Positions 10,166-17,478 of a DNA stretch of 21,058 nt are shown one piece after another (position 1 is the first letter of the stretch; the number at the start of each line of letters is the position of its first letter). Location of the stretch: positions 1-21,058 of the IMG/VR virus record IMGVR_UViG_3300034407_000338; one strand, written 5' to 3'. The notes under the pieces were generated by a model, which saw only the letters and a list, made by a program, of their open reading frames with translations, searched no databases and was not told the origin of the DNA. The translations under genes were made by a program, and so were the position numbers. The stretch comes from a virus.

Positions 10166-10369
10166 ATGTGTATGTCAGCACCAGATATTCCTCCTCCTCC
10201 ACCACCTCCAGCACCACCACCACCACCACCTCCTGTTGCTGAAGCACCTAAGACTGTTAGACAAACACAGCCTAAGAAGAAAAGAAGAGGAGCACAAGCT
10301 CAGTTAGCACGAACTGCTAGACCTACACTAGGTGGAATGTCAGGTGGTACTGGTGTTAATATGTCTTAA
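10166..10369 (+). CDS. Polyproline virion-associated small protein
   Basis: This is a 67-aa protein. Residues 9-23 are seven prolines, an alanine and seven more prolines; a basic stretch follows (Q-P-K-K-K-R-R-G) and then a Gly-rich end (G-G-M-S-G-G-T-G-V-N-M-S). Short proteins with a P-rich start, a K/R-R-G element and a glycine-rich terminus occur near the start of the structural block in many T7-like phages and are often listed as minor virion or internal proteins; that assignment here is inferred. Two nucleotides separate it from the previous gene. The proline run would form a stiff polyproline II helix and may need the translation factor EF-P to be read efficiently. Confidence 0.68.
   Translation: MCMSAPDIPPPPPPPAPPPPPPPVAEAPKTVRQTQPKKKRRGAQAQLARTARPTLGGMSGGTGVNMS
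10190..10234 (+). repeat. CCN trinucleotide run (polyproline)
   Basis: Fifteen codons of CCT, CCA and one GCA encode P7-A-P7. Five CCA codons are consecutive in the second half. The run lies inside the 67-aa polyproline gene and is prone to slippage, so its length may vary between related phages. Confidence 0.9.
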
Positions 10370-13080: not shown

Positions 13081-13338
13081 ATGAAATATATTTTATACAG
13101 TACCGAGACGGCATGGAATGCGAGTAACAATGCGATGAATACTTTATTTGGTTTACCTGACGACAATGGAAACGAAAGGTACGCTGAAATTTCGCAAGTT
13201 ACTAACGAAGATAATTCTGACTATGGAAAATATATTTTTCCTGTTACTACTGAAGGCAGCTTTATCATAGTCGATAAATTTAATGTAACCGAGATGGTAG
13301 AATTTGATCCTACCTGGTCACCACTTGAGTCTGAGTAA
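13081..13338 (+). CDS. Small virion cassette protein, unknown
   Basis: This is an 85-aa ORF between the lectin-like gene and the portal. It begins M-K-Y-I-L-Y-S-T-E-T-A-W-N-A-S-N; small phage proteins starting M-K-Y-L-L-Y-S-T-E-x-E often accompany tail fibre genes. The middle contains Y-A-E-I-S-Q-V-T, the end is acidic (F-D-P-T-W-S-P-L-E-S-E), and there are no cysteines or membrane segments. It may be an adaptor or chaperone of the upstream fibre-like proteins. The stop is one base before the portal start, so the two are probably translated together. Confidence 0.62.
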   Translation: MKYILYSTETAWNASNNAMNTLFGLPDDNGNERYAEISQVTNEDNSDYGKYIFPVTTEGSFIIVDKFNVTEMVEFDPTWSPLESE

Positions 13339-13339
13339 T

Positions 13340-14896
13340 ATGCAAGAAACAGCCCAAGGTCTATACCACTCCTTAGAGAACCAAAGGTGGTCTTTCTTGG
13401 ATCGAGGTCGTACCTCATCTGAGTTAACAATACCTTACATAATGCCACCTGATGGTCATAGTCACGCTACTAAGTACTACACACCATATCAAGGAGTAGG
13501 AGCTAGAGGAGTTAACAACTTAGCTTCTAAATTACTGTTAGCACTGTTACCACCTAACGCTCCATTCTTCCGTCTTGTTATTGACAGGTATGAATTAGAT
13601 AAAGCAAAGCAGGAGTTAGGACCAGAGGGAGGAGAGCAGTTACGATCTGACTTAGAGAAAGCACTAGCAGATGTAGAACGAAGTGTATCTCAAGAAGTAG
13701 AAGTAGAAGCATTTCGAGTAGGAGTGTTTGAAGCGTTAAAGAATTTATTAGTGACAGGAAATACTTTGTTATACTTACCTGATGATGGTGGGATGAGAGT
13801 ATTCAGACTTGATAGGTACTGTGTAAAGAGAGACCCGATGGGTAATGTAACACACATAGCTATTAAAGAAACTGTTGCTCCAATGATGTTACCTGAGTCT
13901 GTAAGAGAGGAAGTATATCGTCAAGAGAAAGAGAATAGCTGTGACTTGTACACCTCTGTAGTTAGAGAAGGTAATGAATTTGTAGTACAACAAGATGTAA
14001 AAGGAATTGTTATTGAAGAGTCAAAGGGTAGGTATCCTATCGAGAAGACTCCGTTCCTACCTCTTCGTTATACAAGGATAGACGGTGAAGACTACGGTCG
14101 TGGATTTGTAGAGGAGTACATTGGTGATCTTAAATCTTTAGAGTCGTTAACAAAAGCGATAGTCGAAGGTAGTGCAGCAGCAGCCAAGGTATTGTTCATG
14201 GTTAATCCTAACGGTACAACCAGGGCTAAGACTTTATCTGAATCTCCTAACGGTGCAATTGTACAAGGTAGTGATGGAGATGTATCTGTCTTACAACTTA
14301 ACAAGTTCAATGACTTCCGTACTGCACAAGGAGTAATGAATGGGATTAGTGATAGACTCTCTCAAGCTTTCCTACTTAACAGTGGTGTAGTCAGAGATGC
14401 AGAACGAGTAACAGCAGAGGAGATAAGAATGTTATCTCAAGAGTTGGAAGCTGCACTTGGTGGTCTGTATTCTTTATTGTCACAAGAGTTTCAAATGCCT
14501 GTCGTTACTAGGTTAATGGCAAGGATGAGTAAAGAAGGAAGACTTCCTAAGTTACCTAAAGACATTGTTAAACCTACTATTGTTACTGGTGTTGAAGCAC
14601 TAGGACGAGGTAATGATTTACAAAAGCTTGATCTATTTCTTGCAGGAGCTAATCAAATCGTTGGTCCACAAGCAGTTGCACAATATGTTAATGTATCTGA
14701 CTACTTCAAAAGAAGAGCTACAGCGTTAGGTATTGAGACTGAAGGACTGATTAAATCAGAAGAAGAAATTCAACAAGCTATGCAGCAAGCCCAACAACAA
14801 GAGATGATGATGAAGTTGGGTGGACCTGCTGTAGCACCTGCTATCAATGCTGCACAAGAGCAGTACATGGCATCACAACAACCACAAGAAGAGTAA
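13340..14896 (+). CDS. gp8: Portal / head-tail connector (T7 gp8-like)
   Basis: This is the portal protein (connector) that forms the dodecameric ring through which DNA enters and leaves the head; 518 aa from ATG 13340 (T7: 536). The in-frame ATG at 13304 is rejected because it lies inside the previous gene, whereas 13340 sits one base after that gene's stop. Recognisable regions: Y-H-S-L-E-N-Q-R-W-S-F-L-D-R near the N-terminus; G-A-R-G-V-N-N-L-A-S-K-L-L-L-A-L-L-P-P-N-A-P-F-F; T-R-I-D-G-E-D-Y-G-R-G-F-V-E-E-Y; R-D-A-E-R-V-T-A-E-E-I-R; and a Gln/Met-rich C-terminus (Q-Q-A-M-Q-Q-A-Q-Q-Q-E-M-M-M-K). All are usual in the gp8 family, and it lies directly upstream of the scaffold gene. Confidence 0.96.
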   Translation: MQETAQGLYHSLENQRWSFLDRGRTSSELTIPYIMPPDGHSHATKYYTPYQGVGARGVNNLASKLLLALLPPNAPFFRLVIDRYELDKAKQELGPEGGEQLRSDLEKALADVERSVSQEVEVEAFRVGVFEALKNLLVTGNTLLYLPDDGGMRVFRLDRYCVKRDPMGNVTHIAIKETVAPMMLPESVREEVYRQEKENSCDLYTSVVREGNEFVVQQDVKGIVIEESKGRYPIEKTPFLPLRYTRIDGEDYGRGFVEEYIGDLKSLESLTKAIVEGSAAAAKVLFMVNPNGTTRAKTLSESPNGAIVQGSDGDVSVLQLNKFNDFRTAQGVMNGISDRLSQAFLLNSGVVRDAERVTAEEIRMLSQELEAALGGLYSLLSQEFQMPVVTRLMARMSKEGRLPKLPKDIVKPTIVTGVEALGRGNDLQKLDLFLAGANQIVGPQAVAQYVNVSDYFKRRATALGIETEGLIKSEEEIQQAMQQAQQQEMMMKLGGPAVAPAINAAQEQYMASQQPQEE

Positions 14897-14905
14897 CAGA
14901 GAGAT

Positions 14906-15676
14906 ATGGCTGAATTACACCGAGTAGAGATAAATGAGAGAGCACCACAGGAGATTGACCCAGAGTCAGAAGAAGCTGTTGATGCAGTATCTGAAGAACA
15001 AACACAAGAAACGCAAGAGGATAGACCTGAGTGGTTACCTGAGAAATTCAAGAGTCCTGAAGACATGGCTACTGCCTATAGTGAACTTGAAAAGAAGATG
15101 GGATCGAACGAAGATCAACAAGAAGAACAACCACAAAGCGATGAACAACAAGAGGACACCGATACAGAAGATACGAATACTAATACTGTTATTGCTGAAG
15201 CTAGTAAAGAGTTCTTTGAGAATGACGGTGTTATATCTGAAGAGACCTATAAGAATCTTGCTGAGGTTGGGTTACCGAAAGAGTTAGTAGATAGCTACGC
15301 TGCTGGTCAACAAGCACTACAACAAAGTGAAGAAGGTAGTATTAAATCTGTTACTGAAGGTAATTGGGATCAAATGGCTGAGTGGGCTGCTAACAATCTA
15401 TCACCTGAAGAAGTAAATACTTTTGATGATATCGTACAGAACGGTAGTGTTGAACAAGCTAAACTTGCTACCAAAGGATTATACGCACAATTTAAAGCAG
15501 AGAACGGAGTTACTCCTAAGTTGGTACAAGGTGCTGTAAATGGTTCATCTACAATGCCTTTTAAATCTAATCAAGAACTTGCTCGTGCAATGTCTGATCC
15601 TCGATACAAGAGTGGTGACAAAAGTTATCACGAAGAGATTGACAGACGCATCGCAGTTAGTCACAATTACCTGTAG
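14906..15676 (+). CDS. gp9: Scaffolding protein (T7 gp9-like)
   Basis: This is the capsid assembly scaffold, 256 aa (T7: 307). The first half is extremely acidic and Gln-rich (D-E-Q-Q-E-D-T-D-T-E-D-T stretches), with a D-R-P-E-W-L-P-E-K-F-K-S-P-E-D-M-A motif at about residues 39-54 that is typical of this family. A helical middle (S-K-E-F-F-E-N-D-G-V-I-S-E-E-T-Y) and a C-terminal region (A-M-S-D-P-R-Y-K-S-G-D, then Y-H-E-E-I-D-R-R-I) would bind the capsid protein. It lies between portal and capsid genes as expected. Scaffold is needed for procapsid assembly and leaves before maturation. A 117-aa basic ORF in another frame is a shadow of its acidic codons. Confidence 0.92.
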   Translation: MAELHRVEINERAPQEIDPESEEAVDAVSEEQTQETQEDRPEWLPEKFKSPEDMATAYSELEKKMGSNEDQQEEQPQSDEQQEDTDTEDTNTNTVIAEASKEFFENDGVISEETYKNLAEVGLPKELVDSYAAGQQALQQSEEGSIKSVTEGNWDQMAEWAANNLSPEEVNTFDDIVQNGSVEQAKLATKGLYAQFKAENGVTPKLVQGAVNGSSTMPFKSNQELARAMSDPRYKSGDKSYHEEIDRRIAVSHNYL

Positions 15677-15699: not shown

Positions 15700-16116
15700 A
15701 TGAAGCCTTGGACTCCATCTTTTTTCTTGCCAGTGTTGGTTCTGGTTCTTTTAGGTGGATGTTCCAAGGCTTCTTTTTATCCGTTAGCAGGAAGTGTGGG
15801 AGGAGCAACAGTGGGTGCTTTAGGTGGTCCTGGTCCTGCTGCTGGTGGTGCTGCCCTTGGATGGGGGATAGGAGAGGGAGCTAAATTGATGGAAGAGAAT
15901 AAAGGATTAGCTAACAAAGTAAAAGCAATCACTGAAGGAGATGTACAAAAACTTGTACAACAACAACTCAATGAAGAGATGGATAATGGATTCTTTGATT
16001 CTATGTTGGATGAGATATATGGGTTCTTGAAACTATGTCTTATTGGTGTTATCCTTTGGAATGTAGTACCGTTAATCTACACTCGCTATGTTCACAATAA
16101 AGCACAAAACAAATGA
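15700..16116 (+). CDS. Predicted lipoprotein with glycine zipper and TM
   Basis: This 138-aa protein has an N-terminal signal for lipid attachment: K2, a hydrophobic core S-F-F-L-P-V-L-V-L-V-L-L, then L-G-G-C (lipobox cysteine C21). Mature residues ~30-60 are a glycine/alanine-rich stretch with a G-x3-G pattern (glycine zipper, as in SlyB- or OmpA-like lipoproteins). A charged helix (~65-100) leads to a second hydrophobic helix, L-K-L-C-L-I-G-V-I-L-W-N-V-V-P-L-I at 110-126, and a basic tail. This is unusual in the middle of a T7 head operon. Candidate roles: lysis (spanin or holin helper), superinfection exclusion at the envelope, or a membrane-associated entry protein. Its stop overlaps the next ORF as ATGA. 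The topology is seen in the sequence; the function is unknown. Confidence 0.7.
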   Translation: MKPWTPSFFLPVLVLVLLGGCSKASFYPLAGSVGGATVGALGGPGPAAGGAALGWGIGEGAKLMEENKGLANKVKAITEGDVQKLVQQQLNEEMDNGFFDSMLDEIYGFLKLCLIGVILWNVVPLIYTRYVHNKAQNK

Positions 16117-16217
16117 ATAAACTCATAAAAATTTATAACTCACTTACAAAGAAGGAGAAAGCTATTGTCTTGACTGTTCTTTGCTTAGGTGGAATTATAC
16201 TACTTAATTTACTTTAA
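16113..16217 (+). CDS. 34-aa single-pass membrane peptide
   Basis: This is a short ORF starting at an ATGA overlap with the lipoprotein gene. The peptide has a basic, polar N-terminus (M-N-K-L-I-K-I-Y-N-S, then T-K-K-E-K) and a hydrophobic C-terminal helix from about residue 17 to the end (A-I-V-L-T-V-L-C-L-G-G-I-I-L-L-N-L-L). That is the layout of a tiny N-in membrane protein such as a small holin or antiholin, or a regulator of the lipoprotein. There is no own ribosome site; the overlap suggests coupled translation. The composition is hard to explain by chance, but with 34 codons only moderate confidence is justified. Confidence 0.5.
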   Translation: MNKLIKIYNSLTKKEKAIVLTVLCLGGIILLNLL

Positions 16218-16325
16218 ATGACAATTAGTAAGGCTAATGTCAAGACCCACTGCGGTGGACAATCTCGATCAAAGGTTCAAACGAAAGTCACAACAAATAC
16301 ATACACAATTATAAACTTAAAATAG
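16218..16325 (+). CDS. Possible 35-aa basic ORF before capsid gene
   Basis: The ATG follows immediately after the stop of the 34-aa peptide (TAA then ATG, no gap), and the frame closes at TAG 16323-16325, whose bases are part of the capsid gene's ribosome site region. The peptide is polar and basic (M-T-I-S-K-A-N-V-K-T-H-C-G-G-Q-S-R-S-K-V), ending in a Thr-rich strand. It has no recognised family and no Shine-Dalgarno of its own. The stretch could instead be the capsid gene's untranslated leader. Several T7-like aquatic phages have tiny basic ORFs in this place. Confidence 0.3.
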   Translation: MTISKANVKTHCGGQSRSKVQTKVTTNTYTIINLK

Positions 16326-16338
16326 GAGATCATATATT

Positions 16339-17403
16339 ATGGCAGAAGAAGGTATAACAGACCCCAGTCGTGTAGGTCAGATTAATTCCGCAGGTGATGT
16401 GGATGCGTTGTTTCTTAAAAAGTTCAGTGGAGAAATTCTACAGACCTTTGAGGAGTCCAATGTTTTCAAACCCTTACACACTATTCGTACAATTGAGAAC
16501 GGTAAATCCGCTCAGTTCCCAGTAACAGGTATTGCAACAGCTAATTACCACACACCAGGCGAGAACATCGCTGAAGAAGGTGGTACTAGTAGCACATACC
16601 TCAGCGACATTAAGAAAGCTGAACAGACAATAACTATCGATAAGATGCTTGTTGCTTCTACTTTCTTAGCTAACATTGATGATGTAAAGAATCACTACGA
16701 CATTCGTTCAGTTTACGCTAACGAGTTAGGTAAGGCTCTTGCACTTCGTTTTGACACTGCTATCTCTAAGACATTCATTGCTGCTGCTCGTAGCTCTGCT
16801 GTTATCACAGGTGGTAAGACAGGTGGACAACTTGATGTTGCTAACAATGACTTCAGTGCAGGTGATGTTGCTGGTACTCCAGCTGCTGTTACAGGTGCAG
16901 AGTTAATTACTGCTTTGTTCACAGCTGCTCAAAAGCTTGACGAGAACGATATTCCTGGTGACGGACGCTTTGCAGTTCTTCGTCCTAGTGAATACTACAA
17001 ACTTATTACAGGAGGTAGTGGTGCAGTTGCTATCAATACTTCTGCTGCTAATAAAGATGTAGGAGGTTCAGGATCACTTGCTTCTGGTAGCATTGCACAA
17101 GTAGCTGGTATCCAAATCTATAAGTCAACTCACATTCCATCAACTGATTTATCAGCTGTTACTACTGGAGACGGTGCTGCAAGCAATGATGTTTTCGGTG
17201 CAGGTGGAGCAGGATACAACGGTGACTTCCGCAATAGCTTGGGTATCGTAGGACACTCAGCTGCTGTTGGAACAGTTAAGTTACTTGATCTTGCTACTGA
17301 GTCTGAATATCAGATTGAGCGTCAAGGTACATTGTTCGTTGCTAAGTATGCTATGGGACACGGAATCCTCCGTCCTGAGTGTGCTATCGAACTTGTTTCC
17401 TAA
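16339..17403 (+). CDS. gp10: Major capsid protein (T7 gp10-like)
   Basis: This is the major head protein, 354 aa (T7 gp10A: 344), an HK97-fold shell protein. Family features: an N-terminal segment with D-A-L-F-L-K-K-F-S-G-E-I-L-Q-T-F-E, N-G-K-S-A-Q-F-P-V-T-G (the strand before the E-loop), H-T-P-G-E-N-I, I-T-I-D-K-M-L-V-A-S-T-F-L-A-N-I-D-D, R-F-D-T-A-I-S-K, P-G-D-G-R-F-A-V-L-R-P-S-E-Y-Y, and a C-terminus R-Q-G-T-L-F-V-A-K-Y-A-M-G-H-G-I-L-R-P-E-C-A. A clear Shine-Dalgarno (TAGGAG, about 16323-16328) lies ~10 nt upstream of the ATG. Codon choice shifts to more C/T-ending codons such as CGT, CTT and GGT, as expected for the most abundant protein. A terminator-like hairpin follows the stop. Confidence 0.97.
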   Translation: MAEEGITDPSRVGQINSAGDVDALFLKKFSGEILQTFEESNVFKPLHTIRTIENGKSAQFPVTGIATANYHTPGENIAEEGGTSSTYLSDIKKAEQTITIDKMLVASTFLANIDDVKNHYDIRSVYANELGKALALRFDTAISKTFIAAARSSAVITGGKTGGQLDVANNDFSAGDVAGTPAAVTGAELITALFTAAQKLDENDIPGDGRFAVLRPSEYYKLITGGSGAVAINTSAANKDVGGSGSLASGSIAQVAGIQIYKSTHIPSTDLSAVTTGDGAASNDVFGAGGAGYNGDFRNSLGIVGHSAAVGTVKLLDLATESEYQIERQGTLFVAKYAMGHGILRPECAIELVS

Positions 17404-17426
17404 CTTAGGATTCTCTCTTCGGTGTT

Positions 17427-17478
17427 GGGGAGGTTTGGATTCGTTCCACTCCCCTTCACTGATATTTTTATTTATTAA
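17427..17478 (+). terminator. Hairpin terminator after capsid gene
   Basis: The inverted repeat GGGGAG (17427-17432) and CTCCCC (17449-17454) encloses a second short stem, TGGA (17436-17439) with TCCA (17445-17448) and a 5-nt TTCGT loop; GTT at 17433-17435 bulges out. A T-rich stretch (TATTTTTATTTATT) follows within ~10-25 nt. T7 places its main terminator at the same spot, between gene 10 and gene 11, to raise capsid mRNA relative to the tail genes. A weak or partial terminator acting on the phage polymerase is the best reading. Confidence 0.7.

Follow-up and report, generated by a model that had tools for sequence, protein, structure and literature searches.

A candidate u-spanin-like lipoprotein and an overlapping transmembrane peptide in the scaffold–capsid interval of marine T7-like phages

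What is the function of small membrane-protein genes in the scaffold–capsid interval of a T7-like phage? In phage T7 itself, as a preliminary description of this locus pointed out and inspection of the T7 gene order confirms, gp9 and gp10 have no gene between them. The locus is in a 21,058-nucleotide IMG/VR fragment (IMGVR_UViG_3300034407_000338, positions 1 to 21,058; referred to here as the window), part of a marine T7-like phage. Its 5′ part contains early genes, RNA polymerase and replication genes, followed by the head genes (Table 1). The closest named phages by capsid comparison are the uncultured phage MedDCM-OCT-S45-C18 (59%) and LUZ100 (48%), both members of the Autographiviridae, and many relatives have small genes in the scaffold–capsid interval. 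We suggest, at about even odds, that the lipoprotein encoded here works like a unimolecular spanin (u-spanin) with a 34-aa peptide as its inner-membrane partner. Spanins are phage proteins with a part in breaking the outer membrane of the host, and a u-spanin consists of one piece. We also note two other features of the window: a terminator-like hairpin with a T-rich tail directly 3′ of the capsid gene (17414-17433) that resembles T7 Tphi, and a 67-aa protein with a long proline run (MCMSAPDIPPPPPPPAPP...; 10166-10369) that is kept in relatives.

Table 1. Positions of features in and around the scaffold–capsid interval of the window.
Feature	Position	Strand	Basis or remark
Portal gene	13304-14896		upstream of scaffold
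Scaffold gene	14906-15676		precedes lipoprotein gene
138-aa lipoprotein gene, u-spanin-like layout	15700..16116	+	homologues, alignment, pN/pS 0.13
Lipoprotein signal peptide, residues 1-20	15700..15759	+	alignment and hydrophobicity scan
Lipobox Cys21, Ser at +2	15760..15762	+	invariant in 29/29 aligned homologues
Glycine-zipper segment, Gly/Ala-rich, residues about 31-60	15790..15879	+	alignment; Pfam PF13488
C-terminal TM, residues about 108-126, then short basic tail	16021..16077	+	hydrophobicity scan
34-aa single-TM peptide gene	16113..16217	+	overlaps lipoprotein stop by ATGA
35-aa ORF, rejected as gene	16218..16325	+	ATG in 24/189 loci, pN/pS 1.08
Conserved non-coding element (RNA leader of the capsid mRNA, proposed)	16220..16289	+	alignment of 25 sequences
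AGGAGA, Shine-Dalgarno-like, of capsid gene	16324..16329	+	read from window sequence
Capsid gene	16339-17403		ATG 16339; then tail tube A and part of tail tube B

The lipoprotein has homologues in at least 130 IMG/VR contig stretches, gathered by four scans of viral contigs, the last two of which confirmed about 132 stretches each. Fifty-four distinct mature sequences were read and 29 of these were aligned, with identities of 61–100% over the aligned set. The signal peptide varies in sequence and is hydrophobic in every homologue (alignment, hydrophobicity scan), and the lipobox, LGGC in the window copy, follows the family pattern [L/F][G/S/A/T/N/F]GC. A GCSKA[ST]FYP core, the glycine zipper, a GFFD segment and the C-terminal transmembrane segment (TM) with YTRYV are kept across all 29 proteins. 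The mature protein is under purifying selection (Table 1), and the lipobox at Cys21 and C-terminal TM of the preliminary description are both borne out. The glycine zipper proposed there stands in part: the segment is Gly/Ala-rich and 17 of the 29 members match Pfam Gly-zipper_Omp weakly (best E 1.2e-4), but the copy in the window falls short of a match; the segment could instead form a membrane hairpin. A search of bacterial genomes found no homologues, and in the Protein Data Bank the family profile had chance matches only. An apparently split lipoprotein gene (loci L071 and L072, contig IMGVR_UViG_3300038825_000589) is an assembly artefact, with 10 N and a foreign-looking insert.

The second gene encodes a peptide of 34–42 aa across the family with a basic N-terminus and one TM. 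It is present behind the lipoprotein gene in 189 of 190 loci (a count in which some contigs were entered more than once), and the remaining locus is cut by the contig end. Clades differ in where it starts: 1, 5, 14, 26 or 35 nt ahead of the stop codon of the lipoprotein gene and, in rare cases, immediately 3′ of that codon. An apparent loss of the peptide in one clade was rejected, as the two genes overlap further there and the peptide is present. The 42 distinct peptide sequences have a pN/pS of 0.35, indicating purifying selection, and the ATGA-coupled single-TM peptide noted earlier is thus a real gene. A profile of the peptide, scanned separately, never hit a locus without the lipoprotein, and since it is present in nearly all loci and only behind the lipoprotein gene, we regard the two as a unit. 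The two genes are co-conserved among IMG/VR contigs. The peptide has no match to holin families.

What defines a u-spanin is a lipobox at the N-terminus together with a TM domain at the C-terminus (Kongari et al. 2018, PMC6139136). Fifty-eight are known, in 13 families of which 6 are singletons; none of the 58 has a periplasmic cysteine, and they occur in Autographiviridae (KP34) and in marine podoviruses (SIO1) (PMC6139136). The lipoprotein has this layout, with a lipobox cysteine invariant in the 29 homologues, a single C-terminal TM (hydrophobic over residues about 101–126 in the scan) and no periplasmic cysteine: there is 0% cysteine at residues 22–107, and C113 is inside the TM. We screened genomes in six frames for the same layout, using simple hydrophobicity instead of a trained predictor. 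Exactly one ORF was recovered in each of T1 (gp11, the prototype), KP34 (gp54) and SIO1, and none in T7, which has a two-component spanin, LUZ100 or MedDCM-OCT-S45-C18. In five relatives with an intact copy the lipoprotein is the sole match; a sixth (G006), in which the copy is broken by an assembly gap, was negative. The screen is not exhaustive, as it missed VpV262, which is listed as a u-spanin carrier (PMC6139136). No other lipoproteins common to the complete genomes inspected were seen.

If the lipoprotein works in this manner, a simple scheme can be proposed. The 138-aa protein would be exported and lipidated on Cys21, and from the serine at +2 it is predicted to be sorted to the outer membrane. 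The C-terminal TM would remain in the inner membrane, so that a single molecule spans both membranes with about 80–87 residues between them; we infer this localisation and topology from sequence. Late in infection, when the cell wall is weakened, the lipoprotein would help to join or disrupt the two membranes and allow virions to escape, as in the T1 gp11 type. The 34-aa peptide would be a small inner-membrane partner with its basic N-terminus inside, and its role is most likely holin-like or antiholin-like, or that of a timing factor. We word the proposal as 'works like a u-spanin' and not as 'is one', as it derives from the layout. The lipoprotein has no similarity to known spanins (tblastn on phages, Pfam, PHROGs; none names a spanin), although this does not bar it from membership because the known families are themselves mutually dissimilar at their defining thresholds. 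Other observations also count against the proposal: the lipoprotein is well conserved, whereas spanins are usually very diverse, and there is no endolysin next to the gene or recognised elsewhere. A u-spanin usually acts alongside an endolysin of the same phage, although this is not part of the definition. The periplasmic part is Gly/Ala-rich and then probably helical, unlike the beta-rich T1 family, but an AlphaFold model of the lipoprotein built from 29 homologues is too poor (pLDDT 50) to judge by; in this model a helix at 98–135 covers the C-terminal TM. The suggestion of a compact lysis unit in the preliminary description thus gains support for the lipoprotein, with its u-spanin layout, and the co-conserved peptide, and fails for a third, 35-aa ORF that is not a gene (see below).

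An envelope lipoprotein could instead block related phages or mask the receptor so that progeny are spared from binding to debris, with the peptide as a helper. Small phage lipoproteins with an exclusion role do exist (e.g. T5 Llp), the protein here belongs to the envelope, and T1 carries a separate exclusion gene, Cor. However, lytic phages usually express such genes early and this gene is in the late head module, and masking of a receptor needs no C-terminal inner-membrane anchor. There is also no PADLOC match, a weak argument as PADLOC covers bacterial defence systems. We consider superinfection exclusion unlikely. The position between scaffold and capsid raises a different role, in which a glycine-zipper membrane protein is packaged in the head and aids formation of a trans-envelope channel (compare the T7 internal proteins and gp6.7/gp7.3), and the zipper is of an outer-membrane-protein type. 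This virion or ejection role seems quite unlikely, as the invariant lipobox cysteine implies Sec export before assembly, which does not agree with cytoplasmic packaging, and homologues of gp13 and gp14 together with proteins in the places of gp15 and gp16 are present separately.

The window was correctly described as having no other lysis gene, although this is uninformative as it stops within the gp12 homologue. Among the relatives, G004 closes on itself, its two ends overlapping inside the portal gene, while the terminal overlaps of G003 and G012 are 127 and 123 nt long; these three are complete genomes by these features (loci L082-L085 and L219-L221). Eight families of peptidoglycan hydrolases are absent from the three closed genomes and from five near-complete contigs. 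Phage positive controls were found in the searches for amidase 2, amidase 3, lysozyme and SLT; the remaining families had bacterial control genomes only, and the GH108 control was weak. Pfam and PHROGs scans of most of the remaining G004 proteins found no hydrolase. Marine relatives have an amidase or peptidase gene directly 3′ of the large terminase gene, a slot that is empty in G004. The wall-degrading enzyme of these phages may belong to an unknown family or be a domain of a virion protein. A conserved 83-aa protein with a TM and a coiled coil, encoded directly behind the tail fibre at the T7 holin position (L084:16336-16587), is a holin candidate; it is strongly conserved and in the same place in G001, G003, G005, G006, G011 and G012. 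Standard lysis genes elsewhere in the genome, together with presence of the lipoprotein in virions, had been named as a point against a lysis role; the closed relatives answer half of this, with no recognisable endolysin and a membrane protein at T7's holin place. Two further observations are recorded in their own right. The gp16-like internal virion protein (L084:9996-14498) contains a metalloprotease-like HELWHSL (HExxH) motif and, unlike T7 gp16, has no SLT domain match. In the early region there is a single-TM peptide of 45–64 aa (L085:3541-3678), with equivalents in G003, G006, G011 and G012.

The 83-aa protein also invites a two-component spanin, in which it would act as i-spanin and the lipoprotein as o-spanin; the C-terminal TM of the latter would then be incidental. 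The gene for the 83-aa protein is present in all genomes that include the region, and the protein has an N-terminal TM ahead of a coiled coil and matches families of Rz-like spanins (E 0.002) and holins (E 0.006) weakly. Coiled coils typically give weak matches of this kind, the o-spanins that are known have no TM, and the two genes are far apart, and this arrangement is improbable. It is more improbable still that these phages encode no endolysin at all and that the pair is a compact lysis system able to open the envelope with no muralytic enzyme from the phage; the peptide could then, for example, resemble in its action the single-gene lysis peptides known from small phages, with the lipoprotein breaking the outer membrane. 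As the closed genomes apparently lack any known endolysin, how the wall is broken is a directly testable question.

The 35-aa ORF is open in the window and its ATG directly abuts the preceding stop codon, but that it is a gene for a basic peptide, as first described, is extremely improbable, as the start codon and pN/pS (Table 1) both speak against it and it is the nucleotides and base pairs that are conserved. In the other loci the first codon is CAG, ACG, ACA or a stop. The conserved sequence has two hairpins, of which one carries a UGCG tetraloop, and lies directly before the capsid gene; it comprises GAC/GUC closing pairs, a stem (16224-16227/16235-16238) and a hairpin (CCAC-UGCG-GUGG, 16247-16258). 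Among 25 distinct sequences there are 11 consensus pairs, none broken and three with changes on both sides, although independent covariation events are few. The element beats 500 of 500 column shuffles both in cells paired and in covariation score, and is far above slid versions. Single-sequence folding is not clearly better than that of shuffled sequences (z between -1.4 and +0.8), and as folding energies are not unusual it is covariation that carries the case for an RNA element. Rfam gave nothing at the gathering threshold for this region, and there is no tRNA. A phage promoter was considered but is not supported, as the element does not recur in the rest of the window, nor in three relatives. 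Most of the element is missing from one contig (L021). We infer, on good but not overwhelming grounds, that the sequence behind the peptide gene is a structured RNA leader of the capsid mRNA. A spurious micro-gene is thereby replaced by a conserved RNA element in front of the capsid gene.

Lysis in marine T7-like phages is poorly mapped, and annotation is known to overlook spanins (PMC6139136). With the lipoprotein, a widespread uncultured lineage has a spanin candidate that is located in the head module and not in a lysis cassette, and that is tied to a conserved overlapping TM peptide.

Several known systems bear comparison. In the related T7-like Pseudomonas phage LUZ100 the same scaffold–capsid slot encodes a small lipoprotein, gp38, that is 63 aa long, has no C-terminal TM and is not homologous to the protein described here. 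LUZ100 gp38 (L074:3217-3408) is unannotated and has two periplasmic cysteines, and is a possible o-spanin; no spanin was reported by the authors of LUZ100 (PMC10134795). Like the Gly-zipper_Omp outer-membrane lipoproteins (PF13488) the lipoprotein described here combines a lipobox with a Gly-zipper segment; the match is weak, however, and the lipoprotein has a C-terminal TM in addition. It differs from known u-spanins in its glycine zipper, in the place of its gene in the head module, in having no sequence similarity to them and in coming from a genome with no recognised endolysin; the periplasmic domain is beta-rich in the T1 gp11 family, whereas the low-confidence model (pLDDT 50) shows helices here. 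With T1 gp11, KP34 gp54 and the SIO1 type it shares the N-terminal lipobox, the one C-terminal TM with a short tail, the absence of periplasmic cysteine and the occurrence of this layout once per genome. The length is similar (138 aa, versus 133–134 aa for the known u-spanins compared), as is the distance from the cysteine to the TM (about 80–87 residues, versus 85 in T1 and 87 in KP34). The KP34 holin has 83 aa and a basic C-terminus and is followed by the endolysin, whereas the peptide here has 34–42 aa and a basic N-terminus, with no endolysin behind it; however, the gene order is the same, the u-spanin gene of KP34 (Autographiviridae) overlapping its single-TM holin gene by 8 nt.
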